Part shown: positions 6,949 through 61,508 of the stretch, one piece after another
Layout of the letters: every line of letters starts with the position of its first letter
Position numbering within the stretch: the stretch's first letter is position 1
Origin: Marinibacterium anthonyi
GTDB taxonomy: Bacteria > Pseudomonadota > Alphaproteobacteria > Rhodobacterales > Rhodobacteraceae
Direction of reading: 5' to 3'
Assembly (NCBI GenBank): GCA_003217735.2
Contig: CP031585.1
Location: forward strand, 5,349,501 to 5,413,500
Length of the DNA: 64,000 nucleotides
Made by a program: the position numbers and the translations under genes
The notes under the pieces: generated by a model
What the model was told of the DNA's origin: nothing
Database searches by the model: none
Seen by the model: the letters and a program-made list of their open reading frames with translations, nothing else

Positions 6949-7944
6949 TCATTCTGGCGCTTTCAGCCGGTTCAGGATCTCAGCCGTGGGGCGGGGCAGG
7001 GCATCGGACAGCGGCTGGGCGACGGCGGCCAGCGCGGGATGATCCAGGTTGCGTTCCACGTGGGCAAAGACCCGGGGGATAAGGGTCAGGTAATGCGGCT
7101 TTGCGTGGTCCTGTGCAAGCCGGGCGAAGACGCCAAGAATGCGCAGGTTCCGCTGCAGACCAAGCACGGCGCAGGCGGTGCGCAGGTCATGGTCGGCGAC
7201 GCCCGTCATGTCGCGGAAACGGTCGATCATCGCCAGCTCGACCCCCACCGACACGTCCCGGCGCACATCCTGCAGCAGCGACACCAGATCATAGGCGGCG
7301 GGCCCGGCGACGGCATCCTGGAAATCCAGAAGGCCGACATTGGCCGGTTCGTCGCGGTCAGGCAGCCAGATCAGGTTATCGGCGTGATAATCGCGGTGCA
7401 GCAGGACCATGGGCCCATGCAGCGCGTCGTGAAAGATGTCTGTCAGGCGGGGGATCAGCCTTGGCCCGGAATCGGTGCCGGTGATCGGCTGGGCATAGCG
7501 GGCAAAGGCGACGTCGGTCATCTGCGCCAGTTGCAGCGGATCAAAGGTGATCAGGCCGTCGGGCAGGGGCACCTGTTGCAGCGCGCCCAGCAGGTCGGTC
7601 GCGGCCTCGTACAGCGGGCGTTCCTGGCCCGGATCCCGCGCGATCAGCCGGGTGAAGGTCGCGTCGCCCAGATCTTCCAGCAGCAGCAGGTCGGTGCCGG
7701 CCGACAGGATGCGCGGGGCGGACAGGCCCCCGGCCCGGAGGCAATCGGCGAGCCGTGCAAAGGTCTTGATCCCGGCCGCGTCACCTTCTGGGGCAATCAT
7801 CAGGATGGCGGTTTCACCCGACGCCGGGTGGGTCAGCCTGTCATAGCGCCGGGCCGAGGCATCGCCGGCCAGTGCCGTACGCCAGGCATCGTCCCAGCCG
7901 GCCTTGGCCAGGAAGGTGGCAATTTCCCCGTCGCGGTCGTTCAT
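6949..7944 (-). CDS. amgK: N-acetylmuramate/N-acetylglucosamine kinase (AmgK type)
   Basis: 331-residue aminoglycoside-phosphotransferase-fold kinase. The catalytic loop HRDYHADNLIW and the metal-binding LLDFQDA are visible. AmgK phosphorylates recycled MurNAc at C1, producing the substrate for MurU. The chosen ATG overlaps the tsaE stop (ATGA). The reading frame stays open upstream inside tsaE, but that stretch is a shadow of tsaE. Order tsaE-amgK-murU is the usual arrangement of this recycling pair in alphaproteobacteria. Confidence 0.87.
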   Translation of the reverse strand: MNDRDGEIATFLAKAGWDDAWRTALAGDASARRYDRLTHPASGETAILMIAPEGDAAGIKTFARLADCLRAGGLSAPRILSAGTDLLLLEDLGDATFTRLIARDPGQERPLYEAATDLLGALQQVPLPDGLITFDPLQLAQMTDVAFARYAQPITGTDSGPRLIPRLTDIFHDALHGPMVLLHRDYHADNLIWLPDRDEPANVGLLDFQDAVAGPAAYDLVSLLQDVRRDVSVGVELAMIDRFRDMTGVADHDLRTACAVLGLQRNLRILGVFARLAQDHAKPHYLTLIPRVFAHVERNLDHPALAAVAQPLSDALPRPTAEILNRLKAPE

Positions 7945-8411
7945 GCGGCGATGTCCGCAAGCCGGCCGGCCCATCCGGGCGCAGCCGAGGTGATGGTCAG
8001 CCGGCGCAGGTCCAGGTCGTCGCGATCCGGGGTGAAGGTCAGGCGCAGGGCGGTGTCGGGCGCCAGGTCGCCCAGCCGGTCGGGCCATTCCACCAGGCAG
8101 ATCGCCTCGTCGAAGGCGTCGACAAGGCCCAGGTCCTCGACTTCGTCGGGTCCGGACATGCGGTAGAGGTCGCAATGCCATACGGGTCCGCGCAGGGTGT
8201 CGTAGGTCTGGACCAGGGTGAAGGTCGGGCTGGGCACGTCCTCGGGGATGTCCTGCAGCGACTGGATCAGGCTGCGGGCGAAATGCGATTTGCCGGCGCC
8301 GACGGGACCGTCCAGCAAAAGAACGTCGCCCGCAGACAGGCGGCGGCCCAACTGGGCCGCGAACCGGGCGGTGGCCTCGGGCGAGGGCAGGGTGATTGCA
8401 TAGGGCGACAT
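7941..8411 (-). CDS. tsaE: tRNA threonylcarbamoyladenosine biosynthesis ATPase TsaE
   Basis: 156-residue P-loop protein with Walker A GPVGAGKS (residues 35-42) and the family motifs SPTFTLV and HCDLYRM. TsaE works with TsaB and TsaD to make the t6A modification on tRNAs that read ANN codons. TsaD is encoded in the same window at 22113-23207. The gene lies 42 bases after the PAS gene and overlaps amgK by four bases. Confidence 0.93.
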   Translation of the reverse strand: MSPYAITLPSPEATARFAAQLGRRLSAGDVLLLDGPVGAGKSHFARSLIQSLQDIPEDVPSPTFTLVQTYDTLRGPVWHCDLYRMSGPDEVEDLGLVDAFDEAICLVEWPDRLGDLAPDTALRLTFTPDRDDLDLRRLTITSAAPGWAGRLADIAA

Positions 8412-8453
8412 GGCGCCACAATGCCGCCCGTCACGCGCCCCCGCAAGCGAAGA

Positions 8454-10037
8454 TCAGAAGGCGTCGGCGGCCATGCGGCCCGACACCGCCGGTGCGGCAT
8501 CGGCGAGCGACGAGGCGCGGAAACAGACCAGGGTCGCGCCGTCGTGAATCGGGTGGACGGTGCAGATGACGTCTTCGCCGGTGCCAAGCGTGACATTGGC
8601 CCACCAGGTGGTCCGGTCGGTCGGCGCGGCGACAAAGTCGCGCAGATCGCCCCAGACCGGGGTAGGGGCGGACCGGGCCTGCCAGTCGCGTGTGGCGTCG
8701 AAGATCGTGACCTCGGCAAAGCTGGCGTCGGGATCGACGTTCCACAGCTGCCGGTAGGCCGCGTTCGACAGGGTCAGCACGCCGTTGGCGCCAAAGACCG
8801 CGACCGCGTCGTCGATATGGTCCAGGATCGACTGGCTGGTCTCGATCTCGGAGCGGAAGCGGCGGGTCAGCGTGACCTCGGCGGTGATGTCCTCGAACAG
8901 GAAGGCGACGGCGCCGTCGGGATGGGGCCGGCCGCTGATGCGATAGATCGACCCCGAGGGCAGCGACCAGGTTTCGCGATAGCTGCCATCGGCGGCGGCG
9001 GCGACAAGGTCGGCCATCTGGTCGCGCCAGGTGTGGTAATTCTTGGGTTCGGGCATCATCCGGGCGTCGCGCAGGCGGTCGAAAAAGCTGAGAAGGTTGG
9101 GCCGGGCCGACAGGAAATCCGCCGGCAGCGCGGTCAGGTCGATCAGCGCCGGGTTGAACAGCGCCAGCTGCCGGTTGCGGTCGAAGATGGCCAGCCCGAT
9201 CGACAGTTGCGCAAAGGTCTTGGTCAGGGTCTGGACGAAATTGCGCTGCGCGATCTCGGCATTGACCACGGCGCCGACATCGACGGCATAGAACATCCGA
9301 TAGCCGTCATGCCGCGCGATCCAGACATCGTACCAGAAGAAACTGTCCTGCCCGGGGATCGAGATCGACGCGCGGATCCGGCTGCCGCTGGGCTTGGTGT
9401 CCAGCGCCGACTGGAACAGCCGCTGCCCCGATTGCGGCCGCGTGCCGTGGGTGCGGTGAAACAGATCGGCATAGGCACCGTTGTACCAGCTGACCTCCCC
9501 CCCGTCGTCGACGCGCCAGATCGGGTAGGGCGCCAGGTCCATCGTCGAACGCAGCGTTTCGTATTCGACTTCCAGCGCGTGCAGCGCCGCCGGTGTCCGC
9601 CGGTTGCCCAGGCCCGGCAATTGCATGGGCCGCACTTCCAGCCGCAGGATGCCGTCCAGCCGTTCGGCCAGCAGGTCATAGCCATCCAGCGCATCGCGGG
9701 GGGAAAACACCGCCTCGTCCTCGACCGTGTCCAGATCGTCCAGGCCGGCGAACCGCTTGCCCAGGATCTTGCGGATCAGCGCCAGGTCGGTCAGGTCGAT
9801 GCGCGTGCCGTCCTCGGGGTCGGCATCCATCAGGGCGCGGCCGGCGGGCGAAGTATCGATCAGCGTTTCCTCGTCGAACAGGAACACCGGTTCGCCCTGT
9901 TCGGGCAGGCGCGACACCTGGCGGGTGCGACTGGACGTGCCCCAGCGGCCTGCCTGAAGCCAGATCGTCGCGCCAAGGGCCGCCGCCATGCACAGAAGCG
10001 CAAGCCCCGCCCATTCCAAGATATCAGAAAATGCCAT
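8454..10037 (-). CDS. PAS-domain protein without kinase domain, DivL-like
   Basis: 527 residues. One N-terminal membrane segment (about residues 9-27) is followed by tandem PAS-type regions, for example around MDLAPYPIWRV, IGLAIFDRNRQL and DDAVAVFGANG. No HATPase or dimerisation/phosphoacceptor motif is present. Kinase-less PAS proteins of this layout are known in Rhodobacterales as DivL, which acts on the CckA-ChpT-CtrA relay. A TTAA-N7-TTAA CtrA-type box lies about 50 bases upstream, which fits that assignment. Position next to regB and ahead of tsaE suggests the first gene of the addBA operon. The DivL name is inference from architecture and context. Confidence 0.75.
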   Translation of the reverse strand: MAFSDILEWAGLALLCMAAALGATIWLQAGRWGTSSRTRQVSRLPEQGEPVFLFDEETLIDTSPAGRALMDADPEDGTRIDLTDLALIRKILGKRFAGLDDLDTVEDEAVFSPRDALDGYDLLAERLDGILRLEVRPMQLPGLGNRRTPAALHALEVEYETLRSTMDLAPYPIWRVDDGGEVSWYNGAYADLFHRTHGTRPQSGQRLFQSALDTKPSGSRIRASISIPGQDSFFWYDVWIARHDGYRMFYAVDVGAVVNAEIAQRNFVQTLTKTFAQLSIGLAIFDRNRQLALFNPALIDLTALPADFLSARPNLLSFFDRLRDARMMPEPKNYHTWRDQMADLVAAAADGSYRETWSLPSGSIYRISGRPHPDGAVAFLFEDITAEVTLTRRFRSEIETSQSILDHIDDAVAVFGANGVLTLSNAAYRQLWNVDPDASFAEVTIFDATRDWQARSAPTPVWGDLRDFVAAPTDRTTWWANVTLGTGEDVICTVHPIHDGATLVCFRASSLADAAPAVSGRMAADAF

Positions 10038-51229: not shown

Positions 51230-52519
51230 ATGTCCATGTCGTCCTCCCTCAACGCCGGTGTCTCCGGCTTGCAGGCCAATTCGACAAAGCTGTCCACGAT
51301 CTCGGAAAACATCGCCAACGCGTCGACCTACGGGTTCAAGCGGGTCGAAAGCAGTTTCGACGCCATGGTTATGGGTTCGGGGTATTCCTATACGGCCGGC
51401 GGCGTCTCGGCCTCGACCATTCGCCTGATCGACGAGGCCGGCTCGCTGGTGACAACCAACAACGCCACCGACATCGCCATTCGGGGACGCGGATTCGTTC
51501 CCGTCACCTGGGAACCCGACTTTGCCGCCGGCGGGTCGGAAATGCTGCTAAGCCGTGGCGGCAGCTTCCGCATCAACGAAGACGGGTATCTGGCCACGGA
51601 AACCGGCCTGCTGCTCATGGGGTGGCCCGCGGCCGAAGACGGATCGATCCCCAATTTTCCGCGCGACACGTCGGACGGGCTTGAGCCGATCCAGTTCAGC
51701 CTCAACCTGACGGGCGATCCGACGACCTCCGTCTCGATGAGCCTGAACCTGCCGGCCGTCGATACCGAGGCCGGAACAACCGGCGAATCCTACGAGCTGA
51801 CGGTCGAATATTTCGACAACCTTGGCCGGTCGCAAAGCATCACGCTGGAATTCACGCCGACGGTTCCGGCCACCGGCACGTCCAACGAATGGACCGTGGT
51901 GATGACCGACAGCGCCCAGGACGACGCGGTGATCGGCGAATACGTGATGACCTTCGAAGACAGCCGGACCGCCGGCGGCACCATCCAGTCGGTGGCGACG
52001 GTAACCGGTGGGACCTATGATCCCGTCGAAGGCACGATGATCGTCAACGCAGCCAGCGGACCGATCGAATTCGACATCGGCGCGATCAACGACGCCTACG
52101 GCCTCACCCAGCTGTCGGACAGCTTTGCGCCCATTTCGATCAGCAAGGACGGATCGCCGGTCGGCAACATGGTCTCGGTCGAAATCGACGAGAACGGGTA
52201 TGTCAACGTTCTGTATGACACCGGCGTGACCGAAACGCTGTTCCAGGTCCCGATGATCAACGTCGCCAACCCCAATGGCCTGGCCCCGCTCAGCCAGCAG
52301 ACATACCGCGCCAACAACGCCAGCGGCACCTTCTTCCTGTGGGACGCAGGCGACGGGCCGACGGGGACGATCGCGTCCTATGCGCGCGAGGAATCCAATG
52401 TCGACATCGCGTCCGAGCTGACGGACATGATCCAGACGCAGCGGGCGTATTCCTCGAACGCGAAGGTCATCCAGACCGTCGACGAAATGCTGCAGGAAAC
52501 CACCAACATCAAGCGCTGA
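51230..52519 (+). CDS. flgE: Flagellar hook protein FlgE
   Basis: 429 residues. The N-terminal rod/hook signature SSLNAGVSGLQANSTKLSTISENIANASTYGFKR and the C-terminal NVDIASELTDMIQTQRAYSSNAKVIQTVDEMLQ are unmistakable for hook-type proteins, with a D1/D2 central region (SQSITLEFTPT...). It polymerises into the hook after export by the flagellar type III system. Preceded by a CtrA-like box; starts the flgEKLI run. Confidence 0.95.
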   Translation: MSMSSSLNAGVSGLQANSTKLSTISENIANASTYGFKRVESSFDAMVMGSGYSYTAGGVSASTIRLIDEAGSLVTTNNATDIAIRGRGFVPVTWEPDFAAGGSEMLLSRGGSFRINEDGYLATETGLLLMGWPAAEDGSIPNFPRDTSDGLEPIQFSLNLTGDPTTSVSMSLNLPAVDTEAGTTGESYELTVEYFDNLGRSQSITLEFTPTVPATGTSNEWTVVMTDSAQDDAVIGEYVMTFEDSRTAGGTIQSVATVTGGTYDPVEGTMIVNAASGPIEFDIGAINDAYGLTQLSDSFAPISISKDGSPVGNMVSVEIDENGYVNVLYDTGVTETLFQVPMINVANPNGLAPLSQQTYRANNASGTFFLWDAGDGPTGTIASYAREESNVDIASELTDMIQTQRAYSSNAKVIQTVDEMLQETTNIKR

Positions 52520-52540
52520 GCGCTTTAGGAGGACCGGAGT

Positions 52541-53986
52541 ATGTCTCTTTCCGCCGCATCCAGGAATGCGATCAGCGGCCTGACGATGGCATCGCTGACC
52601 ACGCGCCTGATTTCGGACAATATCGCCAATGCACTGACCCCGGGATACGGGGTGCGGACGCTTGGGTTGACGTCCGACCACGACGGCAACGGTGTGCGCG
52701 TCCTGGGGATCACTCGGTTCACCGACCCGGTCCTCCTTGCGAACCGCCGCGAGGCCGACGCGGCCTACGGCAAGAATTCCATAGCGGCGACCTTCCTGTC
52801 GCGGGTCGAGGGTATCGTCGGCCTGCCCGACGATGCCTTCTCGCTTTCGGCGCGGGTCACCCAGTTCCAGACCGAATTGCTGGAAGCGACCAGCCGTCCG
52901 GATTCGGGCATCCGGCTGGACCAGGCGGTCCAGTCGGCTGCGGACCTGGCGACGGCCATCAACAAGGCGGCCCGCGACGTGCAGACCCTGCGCAACGAGG
53001 CCGAGATCGACATCACCCAGCAGGTCGACCGCCTGAACGAACTGCTGGTGCAGGTCGATGAGCTGAACGTCCAGATCTCGAAGACCGCGATTGCCGGAAA
53101 ATCGACGGCGCCGCTGGTCGATCGACGCCAGGTATTGATCGACGAATTGTCCGCGATCGTGCCAGTCCGCGAGGTGCGGCGCGACGATGGGCAGGTGTCG
53201 CTTTATTCCACCGGCGGCGCGATCCTGCTTGACACACAGCCGGCCGAAATCGGGTTCACCCGGGTCAATCTGGTCAGTGAATTCAGCTCCATCGACACGG
53301 GCACGCTGTACGGGCTGACATTCAACGGCCGCGACATCGCGACCGACCCCGACAGCAGCAACCTGCGCGGTGGCACGCTGATCGCCGCCTTCGAAGTGCG
53401 CGACGTCACTGCCGTCGAAATGCAGAACCGGCTGGATGGCATGGCGCGTGACCTGGTCGAACGGTTCGAGGATGCTTCCGTCGACGCGACCCGCGGCGCA
53501 GGCGATCCGGGACTTTTTACCGACAATGGCAATGCTCTGGATCCGCTGGACGTTCTGGGCCTGGCCCAGCGGCTCGAACTCAACGCCGCCATCGATCCCG
53601 ACCAGGGCGGCGAAACCTGGCGCCTGCGCGACGGGTTGGGCGCCGCCACCCAGGGAAGTGTGGGCGACGCCAGCCTGATCATCGACCTCATGGACGCGAT
53701 GGAAAGCTACCGGACCGCGCCCACTGCCATCGGCACGGGGAGTTACAGCGCCACGGGCCTGGCCGATTACATCAGCTCGCTTGTCAGCACCGAGGCGACC
53801 AGTGCCGAGGCGGACCAGAGCTATGCCGCGATCCAGCAAAGCGAGATGATCTCGCTTGAAGATGCCGACGGGGTCGACAGCGACGCCGAACTGCAATCCC
53901 TGATGATCATCGAACAGCTTTATGCCGCCAACGCCCAGGTGCTGCAAACGATCGACCTCATGATGCAAACCCTGCTGGAGATCTGA
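52541..53986 (+). CDS. flgK: Flagellar hook-associated protein FlgK
   Basis: 481 residues. The N-terminal heptad region ASRNAISGLTMASLTTRLISDNIANALTPGY and a C-terminal SLMIIEQLYAANAQVLQTIDLMMQTLLEI define FlgK (HAP1), which joins hook to filament. AGGAGG precedes the ATG at good spacing. Located between flgE and flgL as in other alphaproteobacterial flagellar clusters. Confidence 0.94.
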   Translation: MSLSAASRNAISGLTMASLTTRLISDNIANALTPGYGVRTLGLTSDHDGNGVRVLGITRFTDPVLLANRREADAAYGKNSIAATFLSRVEGIVGLPDDAFSLSARVTQFQTELLEATSRPDSGIRLDQAVQSAADLATAINKAARDVQTLRNEAEIDITQQVDRLNELLVQVDELNVQISKTAIAGKSTAPLVDRRQVLIDELSAIVPVREVRRDDGQVSLYSTGGAILLDTQPAEIGFTRVNLVSEFSSIDTGTLYGLTFNGRDIATDPDSSNLRGGTLIAAFEVRDVTAVEMQNRLDGMARDLVERFEDASVDATRGAGDPGLFTDNGNALDPLDVLGLAQRLELNAAIDPDQGGETWRLRDGLGAATQGSVGDASLIIDLMDAMESYRTAPTAIGTGSYSATGLADYISSLVSTEATSAEADQSYAAIQQSEMISLEDADGVDSDAELQSLMIIEQLYAANAQVLQTIDLMMQTLLEI

Positions 53987-53989
53987 TAA

Positions 53990-54994
53990 ATGGGCCAGTT
54001 CACGATCGGGGACTTGTCCCAATCCACCCTCATGCGCCTGCAAAGCACGCGCATGAAGACGGAACTTCTGCAATTGACGCAAGAGCTTGCCACAGGCGTC
54101 GTGACCGATGTCGGCGCACATCTCAGCGGCGACATCGGCTATTACGCGGACGTGGAAAAGAACCTGCGCCTGCTGGACGGGTACGACCTGGCCGCGAACG
54201 AGGCCAACCAGTTCGCCGATGCCACGCAGGCGGTGCTGGGGCGGATCGGCGATCTGCTGGGCTCGTCCATCGAAAGCGCCCTGCCGGCGACGGCGTCCTC
54301 GTTCCAGGACGTCCGGCAACATGCGTCTTCGGACGCGCGCAACGACCTTGAGACGGTGATCGACGCGCTGAATTCCACCTCTGTCGGGCGCAGCCTGTTT
54401 GCAGGCGTGGACACGAACGGCAACGCGATGATTTCGGGCGATACCTTTCTTGCCACGGTGAAGGCAGCGTTGCCGGCGATTACCGATCCGGCCAGCCTTG
54501 CTACGGCGGTGTCGGACTGGTTTTCGGATCCCGCGGGGTTCGATGCGATGGCCTACGCCGGATCGACCACGGATCTTGCGCCCGTGGTGATCGGCGAGGA
54601 CGTGACCGTGCAGATGGCGGTGCGGGCTGACGACGACCGGCTCAAGGTGGTGATGGAGGGGCTTGTCCTGTCGGTCCTGGCCACGGATTCGGATTATGGA
54701 TTCGACGAGCTCGAGCAGAGCGCGGCCTTTGACAATGCGCTGACCCGGATGTTTTCGGGCCAGGCGATGCTGACCGCGATGCAGGCCGACATCGGCGCCG
54801 CGCAGGAACGCATCGAAACGACGAGAACGCGAAACGCGGCTTCGCGGATCTCGCTGGAACAGGCCCGGGTCTTGCTGGTGGGCGCTGACGCCTTTGAAAC
54901 CGCGACCCGGCTGGACGATGTCCAGGTTCGGCTTGAAAGCCTTTACGCCGTCACCGCGCGCATGTCGCGCCTATCATTGGTGAATTACATCTGA
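53990..54994 (+). CDS. flgL: Flagellar hook-associated protein FlgL
   Basis: 334 residues. Flagellin-like N-terminus (FTIGDLSQSTLMRLQSTRMKTELLQLTQELATG) and a C-terminal helical region (QERIETTRTRNAASRISLEQARVLLVGADAFETA). It is the second junction protein (HAP3). It starts three bases after the flgK stop and overlaps flgI by one base (TGATG). Confidence 0.92.
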   Translation: MGQFTIGDLSQSTLMRLQSTRMKTELLQLTQELATGVVTDVGAHLSGDIGYYADVEKNLRLLDGYDLAANEANQFADATQAVLGRIGDLLGSSIESALPATASSFQDVRQHASSDARNDLETVIDALNSTSVGRSLFAGVDTNGNAMISGDTFLATVKAALPAITDPASLATAVSDWFSDPAGFDAMAYAGSTTDLAPVVIGEDVTVQMAVRADDDRLKVVMEGLVLSVLATDSDYGFDELEQSAAFDNALTRMFSGQAMLTAMQADIGAAQERIETTRTRNAASRISLEQARVLLVGADAFETATRLDDVQVRLESLYAVTARMSRLSLVNYI

Positions 54995-56262: not shown

Positions 56263-56991
56263 TCAGGCCCGCCCGCAGGCATCGTCGTGCACGGCGGTGG
56301 CCTGGTTGCGGGCCTGCGCGCGGGCGCGGGCCGCGACGACCAGCGCGCGGAAGACGGCGCGCTGACGGCGGGCGTAGAACAGGTGTTCGGGGTGCCATTG
56401 GACCCCCAGGGCAAAGGGATCGCGCACCCGTTCCACCGCCTGGATCATCCCGCTTTCGTCGCGCGCCGACACCCGCATGCCGTCGCCCAGCCGACAGACC
56501 GCCTGGCTGTGCAGGGCATTGACGCTCATGTCCTGCTGCCCGGCGATGCGGGCCAGGTGGGTGTCGTCAAGCACGTCGATGCGGCGTCGGGGCAGGATTG
56601 TCCGGATCTTGCGGTCGGCCCCGTAGGTGGTCCAGGCATCCTGATCCAGATCGCCGCCAAAGGCGACGTTCAGCATCTGGGCGCCACGGCAGATTCCAAG
56701 GATGGGGATGTTGCGCGCGATCGCCTGTTCGGCCAGGCTCCGCTCCAGGTCGTCCCGCGCCGGATCCAGACGCACGCCAACCCCGATCACGCTGTCGCCA
56801 CCGTAAAGTTCGGGCGAGATATCGTCGCCGCCCCCAATGATGATGCCATCGACCTTGTCCAGGTCCGCCGGACGCGACACGCCCCACCGAAGGCCGCGAC
56901 CTCCGGTGAGCCAGAGATTGAGGTTGACCAGCGGGAAGATCCGCCAGCCCGATCTTTGCGAGGTGGTGACCCCGATCGTCGGTCGGATCAT
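56263..56991 (-). CDS. Gamma-glutamyl-gamma-aminobutyrate hydrolase family protein (peptidase C26)
   Basis: 242 residues, class I glutamine-amidotransferase fold. The nucleophile elbow GICRGAQMLNVAFGG carries the catalytic Cys; the His and Glu follow in GVQWHPEHLF. The family cleaves gamma-glutamyl linkages (for example PuuD). The ATG overlaps the amidoligase stop (ATGA), so it would process or trim the product of that ligase. Substrate unknown. Confidence 0.9.
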   Translation of the reverse strand: MIRPTIGVTTSQRSGWRIFPLVNLNLWLTGGRGLRWGVSRPADLDKVDGIIIGGGDDISPELYGGDSVIGVGVRLDPARDDLERSLAEQAIARNIPILGICRGAQMLNVAFGGDLDQDAWTTYGADRKIRTILPRRRIDVLDDTHLARIAGQQDMSVNALHSQAVCRLGDGMRVSARDESGMIQAVERVRDPFALGVQWHPEHLFYARRQRAVFRALVVAARARAQARNQATAVHDDACGRA

Positions 56992-57962
56992 GCGGCCGTC
57001 TTCTGACCTTCGTCGCCCAGACGAAGCGCCACCTGCGCCGCCCATTCGTTGCGCGGTTCGCCCCAGAGGATTCCGGTCGTGTAGCGGAAGGCCTGCCAGT
57101 CGTCGCACAGCGCCCCGAGCAAATCGGGCGTGTCGGCCAGATGTTCGATGTGCATCCAACCTTCCCACGGGACGGCCAGTGACCAGTCGGCTTCGTCGAT
57201 GCGGCAATCCGGCAGGCGGTAGTGAAAGGCCGGGCGGGCCGACACGGCGGTCGCATTGGGTACGACCACGTCGAACCGGTCGGGATGCAGGTGCTTGAAC
57301 ACCGGCATCAGGTCCAGCCCGTGGTTCCGGGTCTGCGTATGATCGGCGTAGATCGAAAACAGGTCCAGAAGCGAGGCATCGGGTTCGTTGACCAGCGCAT
57401 CCACCAGGCTGTGCGGCCAGGGCGAGACAAAGGGCAGCACGCGCCGGGTGGTATCGACCGGATGCGCATGGTGCAGCCAGTCTTCGAGCAGCGCGTAGGC
57501 CAGAACGATGCGCGCCGTGCGCACCGGATCCTGGGGCATCTCGGGGTTCAGATGGACGCCGAAGCCAAAGAACAGCCCGTCACGCGAACCCTGCGCGCCG
57601 GCCGCGCGGTAGGCACGGCGCAGGCGGTCCAGCTGGGGCATCTGTTCGGGCGTCAGCGGCGGGGTAATGACCTCGACGGGAATGACACGACGCGCCAGGT
57701 CCAGGCCCATTTCGATCAGCGGGCGGGCCTTGGCCTTGCGCAATGCGGTGTCAAGTTCGACCCTCAGCGTTCCGATCGACGTATCCCGCACCTCGTAGGT
57801 GCGGTGGCCGATTTCCACGACTTTGCCGCCCAGGGTCCTGGCGGCCAGCTCTGCGGCGTCATCCTCGATCAGGCCCGAGAATTCGATTTCGACGCCGCAA
57901 CGCCGCTCGGACCCGGCAGGATCCGGGAAGGTCGGATAAGGGATGGCTGGCTGATGTTTCAT
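56988..57962 (-). CDS. Putative amidoligase enzyme (COOH-NH2 ligase)
   Basis: 324 residues. The N-terminal strand CGVEIEFSGL with acidic metal ligands, the central TLRVELD and FFGFGVHLNPEM match the amidoligase_2 family, distant relatives of glutamine synthetase and ATP-grasp ligases. It should form an amide or peptide bond by carboxylate activation. Coupled to a gamma-glutamyl hydrolase gene. Product unknown; a peptide tag or gamma-glutamyl metabolite is likely. The ATG at 57962 is preferred over upstream starts. Confidence 0.85.
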   Translation of the reverse strand: MKHQPAIPYPTFPDPAGSERRCGVEIEFSGLIEDDAAELAARTLGGKVVEIGHRTYEVRDTSIGTLRVELDTALRKAKARPLIEMGLDLARRVIPVEVITPPLTPEQMPQLDRLRRAYRAAGAQGSRDGLFFGFGVHLNPEMPQDPVRTARIVLAYALLEDWLHHAHPVDTTRRVLPFVSPWPHSLVDALVNEPDASLLDLFSIYADHTQTRNHGLDLMPVFKHLHPDRFDVVVPNATAVSARPAFHYRLPDCRIDEADWSLAVPWEGWMHIEHLADTPDLLGALCDDWQAFRYTTGILWGEPRNEWAAQVALRLGDEGQKTAA

Positions 57963-58142
57963 AGTCGTCGAACGCCGCTTGGCTGATTCGGGTTCCACTC
58001 TGCCGGCCGAAATGTAGGGACCCCGATGCCGCTGTGGCAACGGAAGCCCAGTGGTCCAACCGTGTTTTCGGGATCCGTTTCGGCCCGGGATGCCGGGTTC
58101 GGATCGCCTGATCGGACGGCGTGAAAGCCCGTTCAGCCGCCG

Positions 58143-60734
58143 TCAGCCTGCCTTGAATCCGGGCTCGCCCAGGATCGCGCGGATGTGGTCTACGTCGTAG
58201 GGCTTGCGCAGGACCGGCGCCGGAGGATAGGCGGCCAGCACGTCTTCGTTTTCGCCGTAACCCGTTGCCATGACGAAAGGAATTCCGCGTTCGGCACAGG
58301 CTTCGGCCACCGGCAGAGAGCTTTCGGTGCCGAGGTTCACGTCGATCAGGGCAAAGCGCACCGGGTGCCGGTCGAGCACGGCAAGCGCCTGTGCCACCGA
58401 AGGCGCGGTGTGAACCGTGGTGGCGCCCAGGTCGCTTAGCCCGTCGGAGGCATCGAGCGCGATGATCATGTTGTCCTCGACCACCAGGGCGTGACCATTG
58501 AGCGCAACAGGCGGTGCCACGGGCGCAGGCGTCGTGCGGTCGGCGACGGGGTCGGCCAATTCCTCGGCCGTCTGGACCATGGATTGCGGCAGGCGGAACC
58601 GGGCGCGCAGGCCGGTGACGCGGAAATCGACCTCGGCCTCGCCCTTCAGCTCGAACGGAACCGACCGTTCGATGATCGTCGTCCCGAAGCCACGCCGTTT
58701 CGGCGCCTGCACAGGCGGGCCGCCGCGTTCCTCCCAGGTGATTTCCGCCGCGCCGTCGGGATCCAGGCGGACCGACACCGCGACCGTGCCGGAACTGTCG
58801 CTGAGCGCGCCGTACTTCGCGGAATTGGTGACCAGTTCGTGGATGACCAGGGCCATCGTGGTGAAGGCGGCGGGCGACAGGTCGATCGCGTCGCCGGTCA
58901 GGCGGATGCGGTCGGCCTGGTCCGAGAAATAGGCGCGGGTTTCGGTTTCGACCAGGTGGCCCAGCGGCACCCAGGTCCAGGACTTGCGCGTCAGCTGGTC
59001 ATGCGCGCGCGCCAGCGAATGGATCCGGGCGTTCAGCACATCGGCATAGGCCTCGACCGTGTTGGCATCGCCCCGGCCCTGGCTGACCAGCCCCTGGATC
59101 AGGTTCAGGATGTTGCGCACCCTGTGGTTCAGCTCGGCGATCAGCAGTTCCTGCTGTTCCTGCGCACGCTTGCGGGCCTGGTTGGCCTCGTCCGACAGTT
59201 TCAGCACGATTTCCAGCAAGGTCACGCGCAGGGCATTGGCGGCCCGCACCTCGTTCGCGCGCCACGGGGCGGAGGTGCCGCGCACGACCTCCTGCCAGGT
59301 CTCGAAGCTTTTGCGGGGGGTCAGGCGGGCGCCGTTGGGGCCCAGTTCGGCGGGCTTGGTCGGATCCCCGGCCCAGGACACCGATCGCGCGATCTCGCGC
59401 CGGAACAGCACGATGTAATCCCGCGGTTGGCGCGAGATCGGCAGCGCCAGCAGGCCGGCGGCGCGGTGAACGAAATCCTCGCCCGGCGGATAGTGGCGCG
59501 AGATGCAGTCGGTGGAATGGATCGTGCTGGCCTGGGCGGTATTGAGGAACCGCACAAGACCCAGGAATTCCTCTTCCGAGGGGGTGGCGCCGATGGCGCG
59601 GAACTGCCCTTCGGCATAGGCGACGATCCCGTCGAATTCGACGACTTCCTCGATCGCGTGGGCGATGGTTTCAAGGCTGTCCAGCACGTCGGGTTCGCTG
59701 GTCATCTGGGCCAGCAGCCGGTCGTGCATGTCGCGGGCCTGGTCCATCTCGGTCAGCTCGGTTCCCATTTCCAGCTGGGTCAGTTCGTAACTGAAAAGCT
59801 GGCCGAACAGTTCGGCGGCGCTGCGCGTTTCGTAATCGACGTAATGGGGGGCGTTGTGGTGGCAGGCGAACAGGCCCCACAGCTTGCCCTTGCTGATGAT
59901 CGACACGGACATCGACGCCGCGACGCCCATGTTGCGCAGGTATTCCAGGTGGATGGGCGACACCGCGCGGGTGGCCGACAGCGACAGGTCCAGCGGCTGG
60001 CCCGAGGGGCCGTGCGCCGGCAGGATCGGGACGGTTTCGGCATCGACGTCGGCGATGATCCGCAGCAGGTTGCGGGTGTAAAGCGTGCGCGCCTGGCGGG
60101 GGATGTCGCTGGCCGGAAAGCGCAGGCCCAGGAACGGGGTCTGACCGGGGTCCATCGCCTCGGCCAGGACGGTGCCGGACTCGTCTTCGTTGAAGCGGTA
60201 GACCATGACGCGGTGAAAGCCGGTCAGCGCCTTGAGCCCGCGCGCGGCCTCGCGCGCCATGCGTTCGACGGTGGTCTGGCGCTGGATCCGGCTGATCAGG
60301 GCGCGCACCAGTTCGCTGTCCTCGACCCGGTCGCTGCGGTCGTCAACGCTGGCCTCGAATTCGAAGACGAAGAACCGGCCCGACCGGTGGATCGAGATGT
60401 CATAAAGCCGCCCGTCGCCCAACACGTCAAAGCCGAACAGCCGCGCGACCGCGTCGTCATGGGTCAGGATCTGCAGCCGGGTGCGCAGGTCGTGCACCGT
60501 GCTGGCCGGCAGGATGCCGGACAGCGGCTGACCCACCAGCGCGTCGATCTCCTTGTGGACCAGGCCTTCGATGTTGGCCGAGGCATGGGCGACGATCCAG
60601 TCGGGCGACACGGCCATAAGCATGCCGAAGGGCTGGACATGGCCGATGATGTGGATGGGTTCGCGATCGCAGTTGGTCAGGTCGATCGTTTGCGCGGAAC
60701 TGGGGCTTCCAGCTGCGGGATTACTGGCGCTCAT
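58143..60734 (-). CDS. Bacteriophytochrome HWE-type sensor kinase with receiver domain
   Basis: 863 residues. PAS domain with chromophore Cys22 (NCDREPIHIIGHVQPFG), GAF with the PASDIP motif, PHY tongue with PRKSF (near residue 475), HWE-type kinase (ELNHRVRNILNLIQ with the phosphoacceptor His near 538, HELVTNSAKYGAL), and a C-terminal receiver (VVEDN, LIDVN with its Asp near 796). It senses red/far-red light through biliverdin. Heme oxygenase, which makes that chromophore, is encoded just upstream with a 14-base overlap. Confidence 0.95.
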   Translation of the reverse strand: MSASNPAAGSPSSAQTIDLTNCDREPIHIIGHVQPFGMLMAVSPDWIVAHASANIEGLVHKEIDALVGQPLSGILPASTVHDLRTRLQILTHDDAVARLFGFDVLGDGRLYDISIHRSGRFFVFEFEASVDDRSDRVEDSELVRALISRIQRQTTVERMAREAARGLKALTGFHRVMVYRFNEDESGTVLAEAMDPGQTPFLGLRFPASDIPRQARTLYTRNLLRIIADVDAETVPILPAHGPSGQPLDLSLSATRAVSPIHLEYLRNMGVAASMSVSIISKGKLWGLFACHHNAPHYVDYETRSAAELFGQLFSYELTQLEMGTELTEMDQARDMHDRLLAQMTSEPDVLDSLETIAHAIEEVVEFDGIVAYAEGQFRAIGATPSEEEFLGLVRFLNTAQASTIHSTDCISRHYPPGEDFVHRAAGLLALPISRQPRDYIVLFRREIARSVSWAGDPTKPAELGPNGARLTPRKSFETWQEVVRGTSAPWRANEVRAANALRVTLLEIVLKLSDEANQARKRAQEQQELLIAELNHRVRNILNLIQGLVSQGRGDANTVEAYADVLNARIHSLARAHDQLTRKSWTWVPLGHLVETETRAYFSDQADRIRLTGDAIDLSPAAFTTMALVIHELVTNSAKYGALSDSSGTVAVSVRLDPDGAAEITWEERGGPPVQAPKRRGFGTTIIERSVPFELKGEAEVDFRVTGLRARFRLPQSMVQTAEELADPVADRTTPAPVAPPVALNGHALVVEDNMIIALDASDGLSDLGATTVHTAPSVAQALAVLDRHPVRFALIDVNLGTESSLPVAEACAERGIPFVMATGYGENEDVLAAYPPAPVLRKPYDVDHIRAILGEPGFKAG

Positions 60735-61314
60735 CTGTGTCTTTCAGGCAATGCGTCGTACGGAGGGGCAACATATCGGCACTGGCGCAAAATAACCGGA
60801 AGATTCGAATAATGTCATCCACAACACAATCTGCCGTGTCACCCTGGGGCGGCATGTTGCAGGTTTGCTTACAGAAATCCCGCCAGGCATCGGCCTGTGC
60901 GGGGGCTTCGAAGTAGTTGTTGGCCCGCCGCACAAGCGGGTCGGCGGCCCCGGCCCAGATACGCTTCAGGAACGACGTTCCAAGCCGCGATCCAAGCACG
61001 ACGTAATCGACGGCGAGCGCCGAGATTTCGCCCGGAAAGGCGGGCGCCGGGGGAAGCGGTGTGGCGTTCAGGATCGCCAGGTCGCGCCGCAGGCGCTCGG
61101 CGAGGTCGGCGGCGATATCGGCCCCTTGGCCGGTGCATGCGGCCAGGGCCGAAAAGCCGCGTTCGTTGATGCGCAGGAAATCGGTCAGGCCATCGGCATG
61201 GCACAGCGACAGTCCGCCCAGCCGGTCGTCAAGCGCGTGGTGCAGGCCGGCACTGTCGCGCCGCATGCGGTCGCGCAGCGAATCCGAAGCTGTCGGCGTG
61301 TCGTCCAGTGTCAA
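60721..61314 (-). CDS. Biliverdin-producing heme oxygenase (BphO type)
   Basis: About 197 residues from a TTG start, the usual length. Heme oxygenase core with a probable proximal His near 25 (SAGLHHALDDRL) and downstream VVLGSRLGTSFLKRIW. It opens heme to biliverdin, the chromophore of the adjacent bacteriophytochrome; the two genes overlap. The open frame continues upstream to 61500 but without homology-like signal. The start is uncertain. Confidence 0.87.
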   Translation of the reverse strand: MTLDDTPTASDSLRDRMRRDSAGLHHALDDRLGGLSLCHADGLTDFLRINERGFSALAACTGQGADIAADLAERLRRDLAILNATPLPPAPAFPGEISALAVDYVVLGSRLGTSFLKRIWAGAADPLVRRANNYFEAPAQADAWRDFCKQTCNMPPQGDTADCVVDDIIRIFRLFCASADMLPLRTTHCLKDTDERQ

Positions 61315-61508
61315 CTCGGAGCCCCCCGATGGTCGTGGCGGCTGCGGATACCCATCCGCGAACGGTCTGTCGACGGGGGATGCGCAAAAAGTGTGGTCAC
61401 GGTTAATGCCGCCGCGGTCCGCAAGGCGTCGGGCCTTGGGCACTGGGGAAGTCTGTGGTCGACGTCGAAGAGCAATTTCGTAGCATTCAGCCTGGATCAC
61501 ACCGATGC

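Follow-up and report, generated by a model that had tools for sequence, protein, structure and literature searches.

In the PuuA/PuuD putrescine pathway, a gamma-glutamylated intermediate is handled by a GS-fold ligase (gamma-glutamylputrescine synthetase, PuuA) at one end and by a PF07722 hydrolase (gamma-glutamyl-GABA hydrolase, PuuD) at the other. Another association, of a proteobacterial amidoligase with a glutamine-amidotransferase-like thiol peptidase, was described by Iyer, Burroughs and Aravind (2008; PMC2588565). Their CJD_1902-like family (Pfam Amidoligase_2) shares the ligase family, the type of partner, and the conserved neighborhood with the gene pair analyzed here, whereas EcfG control, stress-related neighbors, and a fixed 8-nt spacing do not figure in the sections of that article on which we draw. 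Adjacent genes for a ligase and a class-I GATase-fold protein also encode the peptidoglycan amidation complex MurT-GatD, according to the part of its description used here (PMC3267633). However, MurT is a relative of the Mur ligases and not of GS/GCL fold. With the EcfG-controlled general stress response (GSR) genes of Alphaproteobacteria the pair has in common a promoter that fits the consensus (PMC12148442) and neighboring genes for EcfG, PhyR, and HisKA_2 kinases. Its ATG is fixed at 8 nt from the site, unlike that of most other EcfG-like sites in the same loci, and in the genome of Marinibacterium anthonyi the PhyR and EcfG genes lie 163 kb from the pair. In summary, the pair has been known since 2008 but is uncharacterized, and what is added here is its link to the stress response, which is conserved across much of the Rhodobacteraceae. 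The literature searched yielded neither a product of the pair (the articles covered did not include a follow-up, Mol Biosyst 2009, 5:1636) nor a connection of the pair to GSR.

The window is a stretch of 64,000 nt of M. anthonyi DNA, in which the two genes occupy precisely the span 56263-57962 given in the initial annotation, both on the minus strand. The upstream gene (56988..57962; ATG at 57962, stop at 56988) encodes a 324-aa amidoligase, which matches PF12224 with residues 19-270 (E 6.2e-48, 164 bits against a cut-off of 22, profile positions 2-244 of 245). The downstream gene (56263..56991; ATG at 56991, stop at 56263) encodes a 242-aa peptidase C26, a PuuD-like hydrolase of class-I GATase fold, which matches PF07722 (E 3.1e-45, 155 bits, cut-off 20.5) and also the GATase profile PF00117. 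These matches bear out the earlier family calls, amidoligase_2 and peptidase C26, and the four-base overlap reported with them is found as the sequence ATGA at 56988..56991 (minus strand), a stop/start common to both genes that predicts translational coupling. Predicted catalytic residues are kept in both proteins. According to a profile search, the amidoligase of the pair is the single PF12224 gene in the 6.8-Mb genome, whereas a second strong match to the C26 family is encoded at another place in it. We give an even chance to the reading that the two genes encode a GSR-induced gamma-glutamyl-type amide ligase and a gamma-glutamyl hydrolase, which together would form and break down a small metabolite of the stress response in a make-and-unmake cycle.

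PF12224 was matched by all 16 diverse relatives of the amidoligase. Across 69 ligases, the residues G23, E25, E27, D71, E97, N139, R212, D217, R243, H247, R249, W269, and E273 are invariant, and the position of H137 is occupied by His in 58 and by Gln in 11. Of the invariant residues, E25, E27, D71, E97, and N139 are candidates for the acidic ATP/Mg site of a GS/GCL fold. An AlphaFold model built from five sequences (pLDDT 68, pTM 0.73) had its best full-length structural match in plant glutamate-cysteine ligase (2gwc; Z 7.7, 225 residues, rmsd 5.7), and nearly all other long structural alignments were to YbdK, glutamine synthetases, GMAS, and Dop. With Z below 8, these alignments are suggestive of a GS/GCL-type fold and not proof of it. 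A Foldseek search of the model against the PDB returned nothing at E ≤ 0.001, and the only sequence relative in the PDB was a weak match to a designed protein. In profile comparisons the ligase did not match GshA and matched YbdK weakly, with a weak alignment of the G-x-E-x-E and H-x-N motifs. Although a plant GCL is the best structural match, the ligase differs from the glutamate-cysteine ligase/YbdK family in that the GCS2 profile, PF04107, does not match it; PF12224 alone does. Since two further genes of the GCS2 type exist elsewhere in the genome, glutathione synthesis is unlikely to be the task of the PF12224 ligase. The protein is probably an ATP-dependent carboxylate-amine ligase of the glutamine synthetase/gamma-glutamylcysteine synthetase (GS/GCL) type, predicted to build an amide, most likely on glutamate. 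A published test of ATP-dependent ligation was not found.

The predicted catalytic triad of the C26 protein, C101-H200-E202, is invariant in 63 C26 sequences. The solved structures most closely related to the protein are those of Lin1909, a probable glutamine amidotransferase, and PuuD. Its score against the PuuD equivalog model NF008471 is 85.7 bits and does not reach the cut-off of 266. Judged by its sequence, the protein is thus a distant relative of PuuD and not PuuD itself, and it would probably cut amides such as the ligase builds. Its structure model was poor (pLDDT 55) and was not used in the conclusions. The initial annotation had suggested that one enzyme of the pair makes a product and the other trims it. 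This division of labor fits the sequence evidence and also the prediction contained in the cited sections of the 2008 article (PMC2588565), and the two enzymes may act on a common product. The main rival explanation, which we regard as unlikely, is a two-subunit glutamine-dependent amidotransferase, in which the C26 protein would serve as glutaminase and feed ammonia to the ligase, which would turn a carboxylate into a carboxamide as in GatD/MurT or other class-I GATase complexes. The complete Cys-His-Glu triad and the PF00117 match are features of known GATase subunits and fit this explanation. However, the solved relatives and the NCBIfam match place the C26 protein on the side of PuuD and not among the GMP-synthase-like GATases, and it has a C-R-G-x-Q elbow as in Lin1909.

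The organization of the genes in other genomes bears on the same question. Among genomes drawn evenly from the class, the family, and the phylum, the ligase is patchy, occurring in 26 of 386, 23 of 149 (protein query), and 26 of 397, respectively. Of 69 amidoligase loci, which represent many families of Alpha- and other Proteobacteria, 63 (45/49 in a first set, 18/20 in a second) have a C26 gene as the next gene downstream in the same orientation, an arrangement so frequent that it is far beyond chance. Thus, the pair is not private to its own genome, which the initial annotation had named as grounds for refutation. The exact 4-nt overlap occurs in 31 and an overlap of any length in 57 of the 63 pairs, with start codons chosen automatically. 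The trees of the ligase and the C26 protein are correlated (r 0.74 overall; 0.41 within the Rhodobacteraceae, where the best shuffle gave 0.28). Such a near-constant, overlapping 1:1 gene order and correlated trees would also suit the subunits of an amidotransferase, but six ligases do without the partner, and no ligase-C26 fusion was seen. The absence of a C26 neighbor at these six loci speaks against the make-and-unmake reading as well. The six amidoligases without a C26 neighbor (loci L076, L103, L104, L107, L149, and L150), which may show whether the ligase works alone, have unrelated genes as neighbors. At L103, a candidate PuuB-like oxidase beside the orphan ligase was rejected, because its profile matches are those of an FAD oxidoreductase of generic type, with L-pipecolate oxidase as the nearest family and a score below the cut-off. 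The pairs differ from the PuuA system not only in the family of the ligase, PF12224, but also in having no conserved oxidase or dehydrogenase beside them. Plasmids carry the pair in Dinoroseobacter, Qingshengfaniella, and strain SC52, and the distant plasmid-borne amidoligases of Azospirillum, Microvirga, and Rhodovastum have no adjoining C26 gene in the listed annotation. Phage homologs amounted to one distant match.

The most informative feature of the locus, a GSR promoter together with its neighborhood, is absent from the initial annotation. Upstream of the amidoligase, the minus strand contains GGAAC-N17-CGTT (57996..57971), a perfect fit to the EcfG consensus GGAAC-N16-17-C/GGTT (PMC12148442; similar in PMC6599016) that is conserved in relatives. 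The predicted -35 box is GGAAC (57992..57996, minus strand), and the predicted -10 box, CGTT (57971..57974, minus strand), follows it after 17 nt and ends 8 nt before the ATG of the amidoligase. The site was first spotted by eye, after which the 100 nt preceding the ligase gene were checked in other loci. Strict sites occur in 12 of the 27 Rhodobacteraceae loci, whereas the expectation derived from these loci is 0.2, and 16 loci have a looser site. In 12 of these 16 site-bearing loci, and hence in 12 of all 27, the ATG lies exactly 8 nt past the site. Among the remaining ATGs of these loci, 3 of 11,901 have this spacing, and among 56 other EcfG-like sites with a nearby ORF, one does; a distance of about 20-70 nt to the following ATG is the rule for these other sites. 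In other Alphaproteobacteria the strict site was found upstream of the ligase in none of 22 loci, so that the EcfG link is confined to the Rhodobacteraceae. Counts of the EcfG pattern over the whole M. anthonyi genome showed no excess over a reversed control pattern. Transcription by ECF sigma factors usually begins a few bases past the -10 box and, given the spacing of 8 nt, the mRNA of the pair should be leaderless if, as we infer, transcription starts there. Judging from promoter sites and neighbors, the pair appears to be switched on by GSR here and in many relatives, and the fixed spacing offers a conserved test case for the leaderless translation of a stress operon.

Genes for the regulators themselves are frequent near the pair. 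In 13 of the 27 Rhodobacteraceae loci, the gene for an EcfG-like sigma factor is no more than about 6 kb away, and PhyR is nearby in nine, usually with a HisKA_2 kinase and in several orders and orientations; either a promoter site or a regulator neighbor connects about 20 of the 27 loci with GSR. In the M. anthonyi genome, two EcfG-type sites are situated about 4 kb from PhyR, and in the window a phytochrome-HWE kinase gene adjoins the pair. Kinases of the HWE class are frequent signal donors of PhyR (PMC12148442). In Dinoroseobacter shibae the pair (DSHI_RS19780/19775) resides on the 153-kb chromid pDSHI02 (NC_009956), which also bears the whole PhyR-NepR-EcfG-kinase set (DSHI_RS19360-19345). 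The chromid contains an island dense in EcfG-type sites, with such sites near genes for Dps, a Do protease, Pmp3, and PRC-barrel proteins. Starvation under light/dark conditions raises the expression of chromid genes for a kinase and a sigma factor, Dshi_3834 and Dshi_3835, and of the neighboring Dshi_3836 (PMC4373377), and the plasmid-borne Dps Dshi_3912 accumulates in oxidative stress (PMC8007024); by our own reading of the gene order, these Dshi_ tags correspond to DSHI_RS genes of the chromid. The article texts covered gave no expression data for the D. shibae pair itself. Genes on pDSHI02 (loci L165, L167, L168, and L169) code for a glucosylglycerol-phosphate synthase, KatG, an Mrp-type antiporter, and two Dps proteins, and the chromid is possibly a dedicated stress replicon. 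As a marine model with the pair and its regulators on one chromid, D. shibae makes the question testable by genetics and metabolomics.

In the mechanism that we favor, EcfG, the sigma factor of GSR in Alphaproteobacteria, would transcribe the two-gene operon under stress from the ATG-proximal promoter, whose site and spacing are seen in the sequence. The ligase, with its conserved residues and tentatively assigned fold, would then most likely activate the gamma-carboxyl group of glutamate or a glutamyl compound and join it to an amine at the expense of ATP. The translationally coupled C26 protein, to judge from its family and triad, would cleave gamma-glutamyl amides as a PuuD-like cysteine hydrolase. 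In this way the level of a small gamma-glutamyl-type metabolite would be raised by one enzyme and lowered by the other during stress, and proteins would not be tagged. Such a cycle would be useful if the product is needed in stress alone and cleared on recovery. However, with both enzymes made from one mRNA it could be futile unless the hydrolase is controlled. The link to a stress sigma factor tells when and in which strain to seek the product. It is conceivable, though somewhat less than evenly probable in our estimate, that the pair constitutes an unrecognized branch of GSR, namely a leaderless EcfG-driven operon whose dedicated ligase and hydrolase make and remove a stress metabolite of gamma-glutamyl type that is new.

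Alternatively, stress might do no more than induce both enzymes together, each with a substrate of its own; the ligase could, for instance, make one gamma-glutamyl compound and the hydrolase scavenge many others. The breadth of the C26 family would accommodate this, but adjacency across distant families and the overlap of the genes suggest a shared task, and we consider mere co-expression improbable. Protein tagging, in which the ligase would attach a peptide or amino acid and the hydrolase remove it like PafA and Dop in pupylation, is very improbable: PafA does belong to the GS-fold ligases and the structural matches include the depupylase Dop, but clustering of ORFs of at least 80 aa around 49 and 42 loci revealed no further gene that regularly accompanies the two, and the 2008 authors, in the sections cited, sought a Pup-like gene, found none, and favored a metabolite over the protein modification that the initial annotation had offered as one option (PMC2588565).

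Some further observations concern the surroundings of the pair. In five genomes, all from one non-alphaproteobacterial family, a divergent gene for an MscS-type mechanosensitive channel lies about 1.8 kb from the pair (7585-10014 in locus L139, with relatives in L136, L137, L138, and L146), and a thiol peroxidase is close by in several of these loci. These neighbors may again point to a stress setting, but possibly reflect shared synteny alone. In the window, a flagellar link through the adjoining flgI was set aside, as flgI is on the opposite strand and no flagellar gene is among the conserved neighbors. Two long open frames, of 924 aa (51548-54322, minus strand) and 773 aa (58491-60812, plus strand), are antisense to flagellar genes and the phytochrome gene, respectively, and are probably a by-product of high G+C rather than genes. 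The phytochrome gene itself (58143-60734, minus strand) encodes a protein in which a phytochrome is joined to an HWE histidine kinase and, at the C terminus, to a receiver domain. The start of the gene is overlapped by an ORF of 259 aa (60721-61500, minus strand) with no family match, which from its position and look may, at a guess, code for a heme oxygenase that makes the phytochrome pigment.
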